This document shows, one piece after another, positions 21,700-30,346 of a stretch of DNA of 59,091 bases. The position numbers were made by a program, and so were the translations under genes. The notes under the pieces were generated by a model, which saw nothing but the letters and a program-made list of their open reading frames with translations, was not told the origin of the DNA and made no database searches. This DNA is from Acidimicrobiales bacterium (GTDB lineage Bacteria > Actinomycetota > Acidimicrobiia > Acidimicrobiales > SHLQ01), in NCBI GenBank assembly GCA_020628865.1, contig JAHDEJ010000002.1:200643-259733 (forward strand), given 5' to 3'. Each line of letters begins with the position of its first letter. The stretch's first letter is position 1.

Positions 21700-22194
21700 T
21701 CAGCCGATCGTCTGGTCGGCCGCAGCGAAGTTGTCTCGCGTGGCTCGCGCCGCACGGGCGAGTTCCAGGTAGCGGTCGTTCGCCTGCTGCATGACGGCCG
21801 CGTACTGCTGCTCGACGGTGGCCACCAGCTCCTCGGAGCGGGAGACGAATGCCATCTTCTCGGAGAGCATCATGTCGGTTGCCGCCGTCAGAACACGGTC
21901 CACTTCAGCCTGCAGTTCGGTCTTGATCTCGAGGGCGCGTTCCCGGGAGTTGCCGCTCCAGTCCGTGCCTTCGAGACGGGCGTGCGCTGCGCCGATGTCG
22001 GCTCGCAGCGTGTCGGCGGTCGTGCCGAACCGGTTCACGAGGGTCGACGTTGCCTCCGTGACTGCTGCGCTGAGTTCGTTGACCTGCGCGCCCGCCTCGG
22101 TTCCGCTGACCAGGGCCGAGGCCCCGGTCTCGTCGAGCACCGCCGCACTCGACTCCATGTCGTCGAGGTTGCCTCCGATGAATCCGTTTGCCAT
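21700..22194 (-). CDS. WXG100-like secreted protein candidate
   Basis: A 164-residue, mostly helical, Ala/Glu/Thr-rich protein with no signal peptide. A W-S-G turn (W79) lies between two long helices, as in WXG100/ESAT-6-family substrates of type VII secretion, though it is longer than the usual 100 residues. No clear YxxxD/E export signal follows the second helix. ATG 22194 has AAAGGG about nine bases upstream; two further in-frame ATGs upstream add only ten residues. It lies just downstream of, and on the same strand as, the FHA-FtsK ATPase gene, the usual pairing. The assignment rests on helix pattern, WxG and neighbour. Confidence 0.6.
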   Translation of the reverse strand: MANGFIGGNLDDMESSAAVLDETGASALVSGTEAGAQVNELSAAVTEATSTLVNRFGTTADTLRADIGAAHARLEGTDWSGNSRERALEIKTELQAEVDRVLTAATDMMLSEKMAFVSRSEELVATVEQQYAAVMQQANDRYLELARAARATRDNFAAADQTIG

Positions 22195-22245
22195 GTCTTG
22201 ACCCTTTCGCATCTTTGAATGCACTTCAGTAACTTTCGTTCACCG

Positions 22246-22274
22246 ACGATCGCGCATTAGGGCGCGCGAGTCAA
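22246..22274 (-). promoter_or_regulatory. Possible promoter of the WXG-like gene
   Basis: On the reverse strand TTGACT (22274-22269) is followed after 17 bases by GATCGT (22251-22246), a weak -10. It would give a 5' leader of about 40 bases with the ribosome binding site inside. A perfect tandem repeat lies directly upstream. Confidence 0.35.
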
Positions 22275-22280
22275 GCAAAA

Positions 22281-22300
22281 TGCATGAAAGTGCATGAAAG
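22281..22300. repeat. Perfect tandem TGCATGAAAG x2 upstream of the WXG-like gene
   Basis: Two identical abutting 10-base units sit six bases upstream of the TTGACT -35 candidate. Ten-base spacing puts both on one DNA face, as expected for an activator site. Confidence 0.6.
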
Positions 22301-22353
22301 AGTCGATTGGTGCTCGAAGCGTCGATGGATTCGCGCGAGTGCCCGACCGGCGC

Positions 22354-25300
22354 TCAGTCGGGCTGCGCCACCTGCACGAGCGTCGCCTCACCGGCGTGCA
22401 CCAACCAACCCCGACCGGGAACCTCAGTGCGCTCACCCCGGGGAAGCCGGACACCGAGCAGCTCCGCGTCCATCACGGGATCGGCATTGAGCAACAGCCC
22501 CACGCCGCTCCCCCGCACGGACCGCAACCATCGGGGCCATTCGGACCGGCTGGAGTTCGTTCGCACCGACGCAACCACGTGCAACCCGGCCGGAGCCGAT
22601 CGAACGAGCCGGTGCAACACCTCGTCCGGATCGGCACATCGCTCGGCGTCATCGACGAACACCACCCAGGGTCGGCCGGTCTGTGCAGCCGCCCGCTCGA
22701 GCACGCCAGACACTTCAGCCAGCGTGCCTCCGGCATCGAACGGACCGTCGACCCCGTCGCTGATCAACCCAGCGTCACCGGCAACGACGCCGACGAGAAC
22801 GAGGTCGGCCGACGCCCGCCGCATCTGGATAGCAAGCGAACGCAGCGCCGTGGTCCGCCCACTGCGCGCCGGACCCGCTACCAGCGCATGCTCACTCTCG
22901 CGAAGGCGGAGCGACGCCGGCTCCCGTCTCCGATCGTCGACCGCAAACGGAACGTGCACACCGGCAGCGTCCACCAGCACATCACCCACCGTTGACAACG
23001 GGATCGCATCACCGAGCGGAGCAACCGACGGCGGCAACGCGGCGAGCTCCGGACCGGCCAGCTCGCGCTGATCGACCACCTGGGCCACCATCTCGCCCGA
23101 ACCGAACAACGCCCGGCCGGGAAGGAACGCCGGCAGTGACTGCCGTCGTACACCGAGCACACCGAGGTCCAACGGGTCGGCCAGCGACAGCACCACCCGG
23201 TCCCGAACGCTCGCCAGAAGCGCCTTCGGCATGTCCGACGGACGGCTCGCACCAGCCACGAACACCACGCCCAGAGCCGGCCCGTCCCGGATGATCCGGG
23301 CGAGTCGTTCCGCATTGACGCCGCCCGGGGCTCCGTCGATGCGATCGACGAAACCGGCGATGCCATCCACGAGAAGCACGAGCAACGGCCCGCGGTCGCC
23401 CGACCGCGCCCGTTCGCCGAGATGATCGTCGACGAGATCCAGGAGACGAAGGTGGCCGGCATCATCGGCGGGGTCCAGCACACAGGACACGTGTGGGCGC
23501 TCTCGCAGCGGTCCGAGGCTCCCATCGCCGTGGTCCGCGGCGAACACCCAGGCCACGCGTCCGCCCACCCCGTGCTGAAGCCGATTCCCGACGCTGCACA
23601 ACGTCGTGGACACCCCGGATCCGACCCCGCCCATGACCGCAAGCGACCCTGCCGCCGGGTCCCAGCCGAGGGCTACTCGGCGCTGATTGTCTGGATCATC
23701 GCCCACGACGATTGGCACGATGCCGTCCGGCAGCGGCTCGAGCGCCTCGAACGCTGCCGGCGCGATCGTCGCCGGCAGGTCGGGCAGCCACGGGCGTCGC
23801 GGAGGCGGCCGGTCTGCACCAGCGGCTCGCATGGCGGCAACGGCAGCTTCGATCACGGTCCCGCCAGTCGAGCGGGCCCGTTCGGGGAGCCGTGGCGCCC
23901 GTCCATCACCGAGGGACACCGGAGTCACCACCACGCCGGGAGCACGCTCGTCCAGAGGAGGCACCGACGACAACGCCGCCTGCACGAGTGTGAGATCACC
24001 GGTTCCGCGGCGGACCCATGCCCGGCCCGGCACGGACCTCGGAATGTCGACGGCGGCGCGATCGTCGATCACATCGAGCGCGTCGGCGTCGGTCTGTACT
24101 CGCAGTGCGATGCGCAGGTTGGTGTTCGCCCGAATGTTCGCATCCACGGCGCCGGCCGGACGTTGTGTCGCCAGCACGAGATGCACGCCGAGGCTCCGGC
24201 CTCGCTGTGCGATGCCGACGAGTGCGTCGACGAAATTCGGCAGCTCGGCTCGCAAGGTCGCGAACTCATCGATCACCACGACGAGGCGCGGCATCGGACC
24301 TCCGGGGCTGCCGGCTCGCCGGTAGTCGCCGACATCACTGACGGCGGCAGCGGCAAGTGCCCGCTCGCGGTACCGCAGCTCCGACTCCAGGGAACGAAGC
24401 GCGCGCTCGGCCAGGTGGGCATCCAGGTCGGTGACCATCCCCACCACGTGCGGCAGGTTGCGCAGCGCGTCGAACGCCGCTCCGCCCTTGTAGTCGATCA
24501 ACACGAAGACCACGTCTTGGGGGCCGTAGCGATGGGCGAGGCCGAGCAGCCAGGTCCGGAGCAGCTCCGACTTTCCTGCTCCCGTCGTTCCGGCCACCAA
24601 CGCATGTGGCCCGTCGGCGACGAGGTCCACGTCGAAGCGGCCGTCTGCCGCCAGCCCGAGTGGGGTGGACAGCGAGCCAGATGCATCGGCGGATGCCCAT
24701 CGTTCGCTGATCAGGGCGGGCGTCCGTGGAACGCCAAAGATCTCGGCCGCCTCCACGGAGGACGGCACCCCGCCGGCGCCCAACGGCTGTTCCGGATCCT
24801 CCCACCGCGCCATGGAACGGGCGACGCTGGAGGCGGTGGACATCGACATCGCGTCAGCGATGCCGTTCTCGTTTCCGGTCGAGGCCGCCGGTCGACGAAC
24901 CTCCATTCGCCCGTCCGGAGTCTGCAGATCAACGATGGTGGCGACCGATGCGGGAAGCTGCGCTTCGTTGGGAGCGACGACCAGCCCGAGTACGCCGCGC
25001 CCGGTCGATGCGAGGAGTGTGCGCAAGGTGCTGGCGCGTTCGTGCACGAGCGAGATTTCGTCGACGACGAACAGCCAGTGGTGGTTGTTGCCGTCCTCGA
25101 GACCGTCTTCGAGCGCGGCGGCGAGCGGCACGGCAACGTCTGGCGTCAGGATGCGCACGGCGTCACCGGAATCGCGGACGTGCGGAAGCCAGCGGGCCCA
25201 GCGCCACGAGTCGAGGCGAGCCTGATCGGCGACGATCACGACCGAGAGGTCGGCGGGTCCGTGATGAACGCACAGCTGCGCAATGACACTGCGCAGGACG

Positions 25301-26508
25301 CCGTCTGCGAGCTCCGCATCACCGATAACGCCGAGCGGGCCATCCCGCAGATCGGCGAGAAGTCGAGCGCCGTCGAGCGCAGCATGTTCGTCGAGAAGCT
25401 CCTGACATTCCGGTGCGAACTCGGACGAGCGGCCGACCGTCTCGATCGGCGGGGACCATGCGGCCCGGCCGGCACCCAGCCCGACCGTGAACGCGTCCGC
25501 ATGCGTCGGACGACGTTCCCACAGCCGCACGGACGGCAGGCCGGCACGTCGGTGCACCTCCGCAAGATGTGGTGCGATCGAGCGACGACGGGCACGCTCC
25601 TGTTCGTCCGCAGCGTGGAGCTCGCCGGCGAGGCGCTCCAGCCCGTCAGCGAAGGATTCCTGATCCTTCTCTCGTTCTGCGGCGACCCGGCGCCGGTTGG
25701 TCAGCCAACCGCTCAGCAACATCACGGGGGACAGCACGGCGAATAGTGCGTATCGCCAGCTGCCGAGCACCAGCACCATCACGATGCCGAAGAGGATTGG
25801 CGCAACGAGCGCGATGGGCGAGAAGAAGGGATTCGCCCGCTCCGGACGGGCATCCGGAACGACGATTGCGCTCGGGGCGACCGGACCCGTCTCCCGCGGC
25901 GGGCGATTGAGCAGTACCCGGCCGTTGTCGTCTGCGTGGATGGGATCGACGCCAACGGGACGGTCGCCGTCGGCGGGCGCCCCCAACCGAAGGTCGATCG
26001 ATCCGACTCGGACCGTCACGGGAAGCGCAAGCTCCGTGACCCCGTCGACCGGAACCTCCGTGGGGTCGCCATCGAGTCGCACCCAGGTGCCGTTTCGGGA
26101 TTCGAGATCCTCGATGGTCAGCCGGTCGGCGTCCAGGCGGATGACGGCGTGCCGGGACGAAACGGTCGGGTTGTCGAGCAAGATGTCGCTCTCGCGGTCA
26201 CGGCCGAGGACGATCACGTCGGTACCCGACAGCGACCGGAGCTGGCCGGCATCGGGCCCGGCCACCGCAGCGACCTCGACGGCCGCTGTCCCCCATGCGG
26301 TTTCGTCGCCATGGTCGATCACCGAGCCGTGCATCACCGGCGACTCCGACAGCGGGGTCGCCCGCTCCACCATCTGCCCGTCGACACGGATCGTGTGGCC
26401 CTCGGGGATCTGCAATGCGTCGGCGAGCTCACCGACCGTGCCGTGGGCGCGACCGTTTGCGACCGCGACCTGTCCCCCGATTCCCGCTCGCCTCGCCTCG
26501 ACCCACAT
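22354..26508 (-). CDS. FHA-FtsK/SpoIIIE ATPase of type VII secretion (EssC-like layout)
   Basis: A 1,384-residue membrane ATPase. Residues 1-80 form a ubiquitin- or FHA-like domain and residues 95-145 a clear FHA domain (VLGRDRESDILLD, SSRHA, SRNGTW). Two membrane helices follow at about 232-270, then an EccC-like N-terminal ATPase region and three FtsK-type ATPase domains. The first has a full Walker A (GTTGAGKSE, K646), Walker B VVVIDEF and ATQRP. The second (GGVGSGVST) and third (GPARSGRTT) lack the Walker lysine, as expected for substrate-binding modules. FHA domains before the helices are the EssC (Firmicutes) layout; mycobacterial EccC lacks them. ATG 26508 is preferred; GTG 26511 is also possible. 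No other secretion component is nearby. Confidence 0.85.
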   Translation of the reverse strand: MWVEARRAGIGGQVAVANGRAHGTVGELADALQIPEGHTIRVDGQMVERATPLSESPVMHGSVIDHGDETAWGTAAVEVAAVAGPDAGQLRSLSGTDVIVLGRDRESDILLDNPTVSSRHAVIRLDADRLTIEDLESRNGTWVRLDGDPTEVPVDGVTELALPVTVRVGSIDLRLGAPADGDRPVGVDPIHADDNGRVLLNRPPRETGPVAPSAIVVPDARPERANPFFSPIALVAPILFGIVMVLVLGSWRYALFAVLSPVMLLSGWLTNRRRVAAEREKDQESFADGLERLAGELHAADEQERARRRSIAPHLAEVHRRAGLPSVRLWERRPTHADAFTVGLGAGRAAWSPPIETVGRSSEFAPECQELLDEHAALDGARLLADLRDGPLGVIGDAELADGVLRSVIAQLCVHHGPADLSVVIVADQARLDSWRWARWLPHVRDSGDAVRILTPDVAVPLAAALEDGLEDGNNHHWLFVVDEISLVHERASTLRTLLASTGRGVLGLVVAPNEAQLPASVATIVDLQTPDGRMEVRRPAASTGNENGIADAMSMSTASSVARSMARWEDPEQPLGAGGVPSSVEAAEIFGVPRTPALISERWASADASGSLSTPLGLAADGRFDVDLVADGPHALVAGTTGAGKSELLRTWLLGLAHRYGPQDVVFVLIDYKGGAAFDALRNLPHVVGMVTDLDAHLAERALRSLESELRYRERALAAAAVSDVGDYRRAGSPGGPMPRLVVVIDEFATLRAELPNFVDALVGIAQRGRSLGVHLVLATQRPAGAVDANIRANTNLRIALRVQTDADALDVIDDRAAVDIPRSVPGRAWVRRGTGDLTLVQAALSSVPPLDERAPGVVVTPVSLGDGRAPRLPERARSTGGTVIEAAVAAMRAAGADRPPPRRPWLPDLPATIAPAAFEALEPLPDGIVPIVVGDDPDNQRRVALGWDPAAGSLAVMGGVGSGVSTTLCSVGNRLQHGVGGRVAWVFAADHGDGSLGPLRERPHVSCVLDPADDAGHLRLLDLVDDHLGERARSGDRGPLLVLLVDGIAGFVDRIDGAPGGVNAERLARIIRDGPALGVVFVAGASRPSDMPKALLASVRDRVVLSLADPLDLGVLGVRRQSLPAFLPGRALFGSGEMVAQVVDQRELAGPELAALPPSVAPLGDAIPLSTVGDVLVDAAGVHVPFAVDDRRREPASLRLRESEHALVAGPARSGRTTALRSLAIQMRRASADLVLVGVVAGDAGLISDGVDGPFDAGGTLAEVSGVLERAAAQTGRPWVVFVDDAERCADPDEVLHRLVRSAPAGLHVVASVRTNSSRSEWPRWLRSVRGSGVGLLLNADPVMDAELLGVRLPRGERTEVPGRGWLVHAGEATLVQVAQPD

Positions 26509-30251: not shown

Positions 30252-30335
30252 GCGGACGTGGCGGAACTGGCAGACGCGCCAGGTTTAGGTCCTGGTGCCC
30301 GAAAGGGCATGGGGGTTCGATTCCCCCCGTCCGCA
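30252..30335 (+). tRNA. tRNA-Leu (anticodon TAG)
   Basis: A class II tRNA of 84 bases. The acceptor stem GCGGACG pairs with CGTCCGC. The anticodon stem CCAGG/CCTGG holds the loop TTTAGGT with anticodon TAG at 30286-30288. A long variable arm TGCCC-GAAA-GGGCA and a standard GGTTCGATTCC T-arm follow. The discriminator is A. CCA is not encoded and must be added after processing. Confidence 0.96.
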
Positions 30336-30346
30336 CGGACCGAGCA

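Follow-up and report, generated by a model that had tools for sequence, protein, structure and literature searches.

A predicted minimal type VII-like export core in an Acidimicrobiales bacterium, with a ubiquitin-like domain likely fused to its FHA-bearing motor ATPase

Type VII secretion systems (T7SSs) differ in the parts that accompany their motor ATPase. T7SSa (ESX) comprises EccB, C, D, E and MycP and has WXG hairpin substrates. T7SSb, of Bacillota, comprises EssC, EsxA, EsaB, EssA, EssB and EsaA. The T7SSd components TsdA, C, D, H and I were described from Olsenella and Bifidobacterium (PMC11217815). Loci with a solo WXG gene and a YueA-like ATPase are listed for other phyla in a table footnote (PMC3482391, footnote 6). 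A description of the lineage reported here, of Acidimicrobi* with a T7SS, or of a ubiquitin-ATPase fusion was not found in the open-access papers searched; the supplements of PMC11217815 may list the lineage.

The window is the whole stretch of DNA analyzed, 59,091 nt from a 5.36 Mb Acidimicrobiales assembly of 113 contigs (96% complete, parts not found could be unsampled). The original prediction placed a type VII secretion-like pair, an ATPase and a small protein, at 21700-26508, and both genes were found there, on the minus strand. The small-protein gene lies downstream of the ATPase gene with a spacing of 159 nt, and the flanking genes, named by eye, appear to have housekeeping roles (exonuclease III-like, branched-chain transporter, acyl-CoA ligase). 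A tRNA-Leu gene is present a few kb from the pair (window 30252-30336, plus strand). Features of the pair are as follows.

22354..26508, minus strand: EccC/EssC-like membrane ATPase, 1384 aa, ATG at 26508 (profiles, trees, dN/dS)
26299..26508, minus strand: predicted N-terminal ubiquitin-like (EsaB/YukD-like) beta-grasp domain, residues 1-70 (AlphaFold2, profile chain to YukD/TseB)
25975..26283, minus strand: FHA domain, residues 76-178 (Pfam, 7e-13; VIA, Z 17)
25693..25821, minus strand: membrane segment, residues 230-272, probable helix pair with one strong hydropathy peak (Kyte-Doolittle)
24568..24591, minus strand: D1 Walker A GTTGAGKS, residues 640-647, intact (motif inspection)
24265..24270, minus strand: D1 Walker B Asp-Glu, residues 747-748 (motif inspection)
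23605..23631, minus strand: degenerate Walker A of D2, GGVGSGVST, with Val in place of the lysine (motif inspection)
22849..22875, minus strand: degenerate Walker A of D3, GPARSGRTT, with Arg in place of the lysine (motif inspection)
21700..22194, minus strand: long WXG-type helical hairpin protein, 164 aa (AlphaFold2, iterative search, dN/dS)
21952..21960, minus strand: W-S-G hinge motif, W and G invariant in 9 homologues, in the predicted turn
21715..21729, minus strand: F-x3-D near the C-terminus, perhaps a variant YxxxD/E export signal (sequence inspection)

In the broad sense a T7SS is an EccC/EssC-type ATPase beside a hairpin protein, and the window holds such a pair. Like T7SSb, it has an FHA-bearing membrane ATPase with D0-D3 and one WXG-type hairpin encoded nearby; unlike T7SSb, its ATPase falls outside the EssC clade, EssB was not found in the genome, a predicted ubiquitin-like domain and one canonical FHA stand in place of the two FHA-like domains of EssC, and the hairpin has 164 aa rather than about 100. 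With T7SSd it shares a home in Actinomycetota, an FHA with the conserved phosphothreonine motif, few components, and the lack of any separate ubiquitin-like protein that could be found. It differs in that the TsdD kinase, TsdH and the Ig-rich TsdI were not found beside the pair, and in that the N-terminal domain of Coriobacteriia T7SSd-like ATPases does not appear ubiquitin-like by sequence. The ATPase belongs to the same superfamily as that of T7SSa, WXG hairpins go with both, and in both systems a ubiquitin-like domain, here a predicted one, is fused to a membrane protein (EccD in ESX, the ATPase here), whereas EccC is without FHA and forms a separate clade. The solo loci of PMC3482391 resemble the window in having a hairpin and an ATPase without other T7 genes. 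The footnote places them in other phyla, describes no ubiquitin-like fusion, and gives only the middle of three ATPase domains as active, whereas D1 is the intact domain in the window.

The ATPase domain order is a predicted ubiquitin-like domain, FHA, TM region, D0, D1, D2 and D3. Pfam identified FtsK_SpoIIIE (E=4.7e-36) and a single FHA domain (E=7e-13). Among NCBIfam models, EssC (TIGR03928) scored best at 431 bits and EccCa (TIGR03924) second at 322 bits, both below their cut-offs (778 and 509), vs. 68 bits for FtsK; the closest PDB sequences were 4nh0 (an FtsK/SpoIIIE entry of EccC type), YukB and EccC5. The FHA superposes onto FHA domains such as GarA (VIA, Z 17), and the phosphothreonine-binding residues GR, SxxH and NG are kept in it but not in the aligned Bacilli EssC proteins. 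As originally proposed, the Walker lysine is present only in the first ATPase domain (D2 K>V, D3 K>R), and degeneration in D2 or D3 is also present in relatives. The plural 'FHA-type domains' of that proposal had to be given up, as only residues 76-178 are FHA and residues 1-70 are predicted to be a ubiquitin-like beta-grasp. Its two membrane helices are probable as a pair at residues 230-272, where the Kyte-Doolittle profile has a single strong peak.

A ubiquitin-like component is likely, but not proven, to be fused to the ATPase N-terminus, judging from structure prediction and profile comparisons. The AlphaFold2 model (26 sequences, overall pLDDT 84) gave E2-7, E10-15, H25-31, E38-42, E45-47 and E63-68, a strand and helix order that fits the ubiquitin-like beta-grasp. 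Individual N-termini of the family gave weak matches to ThiS, YukD and other ubiquitin-like families. By profile, N-termini of the window group matched at 96% those of a further group of relatives, chiefly Micrococcales, and the latter matched YukD/TseB proteins of Bacillota loci at 45% (P=2e-4) over almost the full length; when the profile of the window-type N-terminus was compared with YukD directly, the match was very weak (6% probability). A paralogue in the same genome exceeded the cut-off of Pfam YukD once the pieces in its frame were added up (31.2 bits; 24.9 bits alone). The matches listed in a structure search with the ATPase N-terminal region were FHA domains and bear on the FHA part. 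No separate ubiquitin-like gene was found in the window genome.

For the small protein, AlphaFold2 predicted a long helical hairpin (H2-74 and H81-162, pLDDT 85; modeled without the initial Met, so that helix numbering is offset by one residue). Its DWSG motif, whose W and G do not vary among 9 homologues, falls in the predicted turn, so that the W-x-G at a hairpin hinge that typifies WXG100 (PF06013) is present in the model. L/F-x3-D occupies the equivalent C-terminal place in most aligned homologues. The protein is longer than the ~100 aa of WXG100 proteins, and homologues in the genus, as called, equal or exceed it in length. Because the single sequence scored 15.7 bits against Pfam WXG100 (gathering cut-off 27.3), likewise missed the NCBIfam WXG100 cut-off, and had no significant phmmer match, homologues and iteration had to be used. 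Iterative searching of 1687 small ORFs next to ATPases led from the hairpin to annotated WXG100 proteins of Mycobacterium marinum pRAW and a Streptomyces plasmid, and to EsxA-like proteins of Bacillota. Against the PDB, Foldseek gave nothing below E=0.001; its best row, at E=0.09, was a chain of the TelA-LXG/LapA3/LapA4 complex and was not taken as proof. The description of the small protein as WXG-like thus held on the predicted hairpin, its hinge and the iterative search, the Pfam match being weak. The hairpin is presumed to be the substrate or activator of the ATPase, and is the only such protein found in the genome, which has no Pfam WXG100 match.

ATPase trees were built from 36 and 41 sequences, in which T7SSc and T7SSf-j were not all sampled. 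The actinobacterial FHA ATPases, window included, formed one clade (support 100/99) apart from EssC-type ATPases and from EccC, itself a separate clade (100/100). 'EssC-style' is only partly apt: the ATPase has the TM-D0-D3 layout of EccC and EssC and a position nearer EssC than EccC, but it falls in a clade of its own and its N-terminus is a predicted ubiquitin-like domain plus one FHA. In the tree, L056 of G034, a genome of this order, was identical to L103 of an uncultured Acidimicrobiales bin. The T7SSd-like references were Coriobacteriia loci, not shown to be Olsenella or Bifidobacterium, one of which carries a kinase and a 1651-aa Ig-rich TsdI-like protein. Bifidobacterium loci L142 and L143 had been tried as TsdC references and proved not TsdC-like, and the Coriobacteriia were used instead. 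The Coriobacteriia ATPases fell on the side of EssC, as neighbors of T7SSe-like ATPases (95/92), and their grouping with the window clade was rejected (AU test, p-AU 1e-5). One side locus (L121), in a bin named Deltaproteobacteria, has a T7SSe-like ATPase with several WXG neighbors and could reflect transfer or contamination.

Both genes were present in each of the 11 genus genomes sampled, mostly adjacent (~8 kb apart in G002, on separate contigs in G001). Compared with a sister genome, dN/dS was 0.02 for the hairpin and 0.08 for the ATPase; both genes are under purifying selection. Because of this and their presence throughout the sampled genus, the pairing is not chance. The long hairpin occurred in 13 of 25 ATPase-bearing genomes vs. 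0 of 15 without the ATPase (Fisher p=5e-4, not corrected for relatedness), and several ATPase-bearing genomes have ~90-aa WXG100s in its place. Other genera, and distant relatives too, have a WXG hairpin gene next to that of the ATPase, and in sister genera ~90-aa WXG100-like proteins adjoin the ATPase. The lineage was found in about a third of the order (motor/paralogue search), and FHA-ATPase relatives occur across Actinomycetota, including many Actinomycetes, with loci in cultured genera such as Actinoplanes, Curtobacterium, Microbacterium and Streptomyces. The placement in an actinobacterium was thus correct but is not unusual, FHA-bearing T7SSd also being published (PMC11217815). In one plasmid record, a motor of the lineage is annotated just as 'FtsK/SpoIIIE domain-containing protein'.

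Several loci of relatives have further neighbors. In four sister-genus genomes (L046, L047, L048, L050) a related secreted protein is encoded downstream of the ATPase, that of L048 being a subtilase (Peptidase_S8, 3.9e-22; mycosin model 61 bits, far below the cut-off of 279), and in most of the four a ~650-700-aa protein that fits no known family is encoded upstream. In Streptosporangiales (L079, L098, L104, L108, L112) the FHA-ATPase gene adjoins apparent Tad pilus genes, named by eye; T7SSg/h of Bacillota have been reported next to Tad pilus genes (PMC11217815). A secreted protein of 2700 aa, open at the locus end and with 15 SdrD-B-like stretches (L052:11402-19501), adjoins an ATPase and a WXG-like gene and may be an envelope-spanning part or a substrate. 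A 2937-aa open frame (L135:7406-16216; ATPase match 651 bits) could represent a motor that has been doubled or fused.

The pair is best read as a minimal type VII-like export core that belongs to a distinct actinobacterial lineage, apparently one without a name, and whose motor carries the ubiquitin-like component as a fused domain (probability roughly 0.68). Domain layout, motifs, predicted folds, phylogeny, conservation, co-occurrence and selection were the direct observations. Its type VII-like nature is well supported at the level of sequence and predicted structure, because the ATPase has the EccC/EssC layout (TM, D0, D1-D3) and is nearer EssC than EccC, and because its partner is a WXG hairpin. 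Neither objection foreseen in the original prediction arose: the small protein is modeled as a hairpin, and the ATPase stands apart from the FtsK-like ATPase of the genome.

Whether two genes are the whole system was judged from the rest of the genome. EssB/YukC was absent, with the B. subtilis positive control detected; EccB was not found either, a weak result as that search had no working positive control. Contig C17 (L054:8091-10930), however, encodes an ATPase-less motor paralogue of 631 aa (ubiquitin-like, degenerate FHA, TM, D0), whose gene overlaps by one base that of a 314-aa single-pass membrane protein with OmpA (E=2e-17) and BON (E=7e-5) domains. This is a candidate accessory platform, and with it in the genome the pair taken by itself may be incomplete. 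The original suggestion of a minimal or orphan system is accordingly plausible but not settled. That the T7SS is complete and merely split, with this paralogue and its BON-OmpA partner anchoring the channel to the cell wall, is a somewhat doubtful alternative. The two genes recur together in G008 and G001 of the genus and in G035 of another family, and all five paralogue-bearing genomes in a 40-genome sample also carry the ATPase. The paralogue, found in G003 as well, is nevertheless in just 4 of the 11 sampled genus genomes (several incomplete), which makes it hardly obligate across the genus, and some genomes of the order survey gave short ORFs only.

The ATPase could instead be regulatory or membrane-remodeling, with the hairpin as a cytosolic adaptor that stays inside. 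No membrane partner, obvious effector, protease or channel partner is encoded among the genes beside the pair, and the long hairpin, with no significant PDB match, could be an adaptor coiled coil; given the WXG hinge, the EccC/EssC descent of the ATPase and the iterative homology to exported WXG100 families, this is unlikely. Missing neighbors and two degenerate Walker motifs would also suit a decaying relic of a larger T7SS, a reading made quite improbable by the low dN/dS of both genes, their presence in every sampled genus genome, the intact D1, and Walker degeneration that is common to relatives. Least probable is an FtsK/TraB-like DNA translocase: the ATPase does contain an FtsK_SpoIIIE domain, but the FtsK-like ATPase of the same genome (contig C23) was a long outgroup in the tree, the EssC and EccC models far outscored FtsK, and the TM-D0-D1-D2-D3 layout comes with a WXG partner.

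For the minimal export core, a mechanism can be proposed. The ATPase would sit in the membrane as a hexamer, with its fused ubiquitin-like domain in the structural role held elsewhere by EsaB or the cytosolic domain of EccD, and the phosphothreonine-competent FHA may tie a Ser/Thr kinase to assembly or gating. As the sole member found in the genome, the WXG hairpin is probably a homodimer. Its C-terminus may dock on D3, and the docked hairpin would activate D1, which alone keeps the Walker lysine, and be exported through the pore.

More tentatively, the lineage may be a third major type VII lineage over Actinomycetota, in which an EsaB-like ubiquitin domain would be fused ahead of a phosphothreonine-binding FHA. 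This genus would make do with one extra-long WXG hairpin, without EccB/D or EssA/B as partners, and in some genomes the ATPase-less copy of the motor platform, with the peptidoglycan-binding BON-OmpA protein, would build the rest of the channel. Garrett and Palmer found T7SSd puzzling in that no ubiquitin-like protein could be found (PMC11217815). In the window lineage, which is separate from T7SSd and for which no separate ubiquitin-like gene was found in this genome either, fusion to the ATPase is the likely explanation. A system of two genes would reveal which parts type VII export can dispense with, and would offer a simple setting in which to study how the motor is driven by its WXG hairpin.
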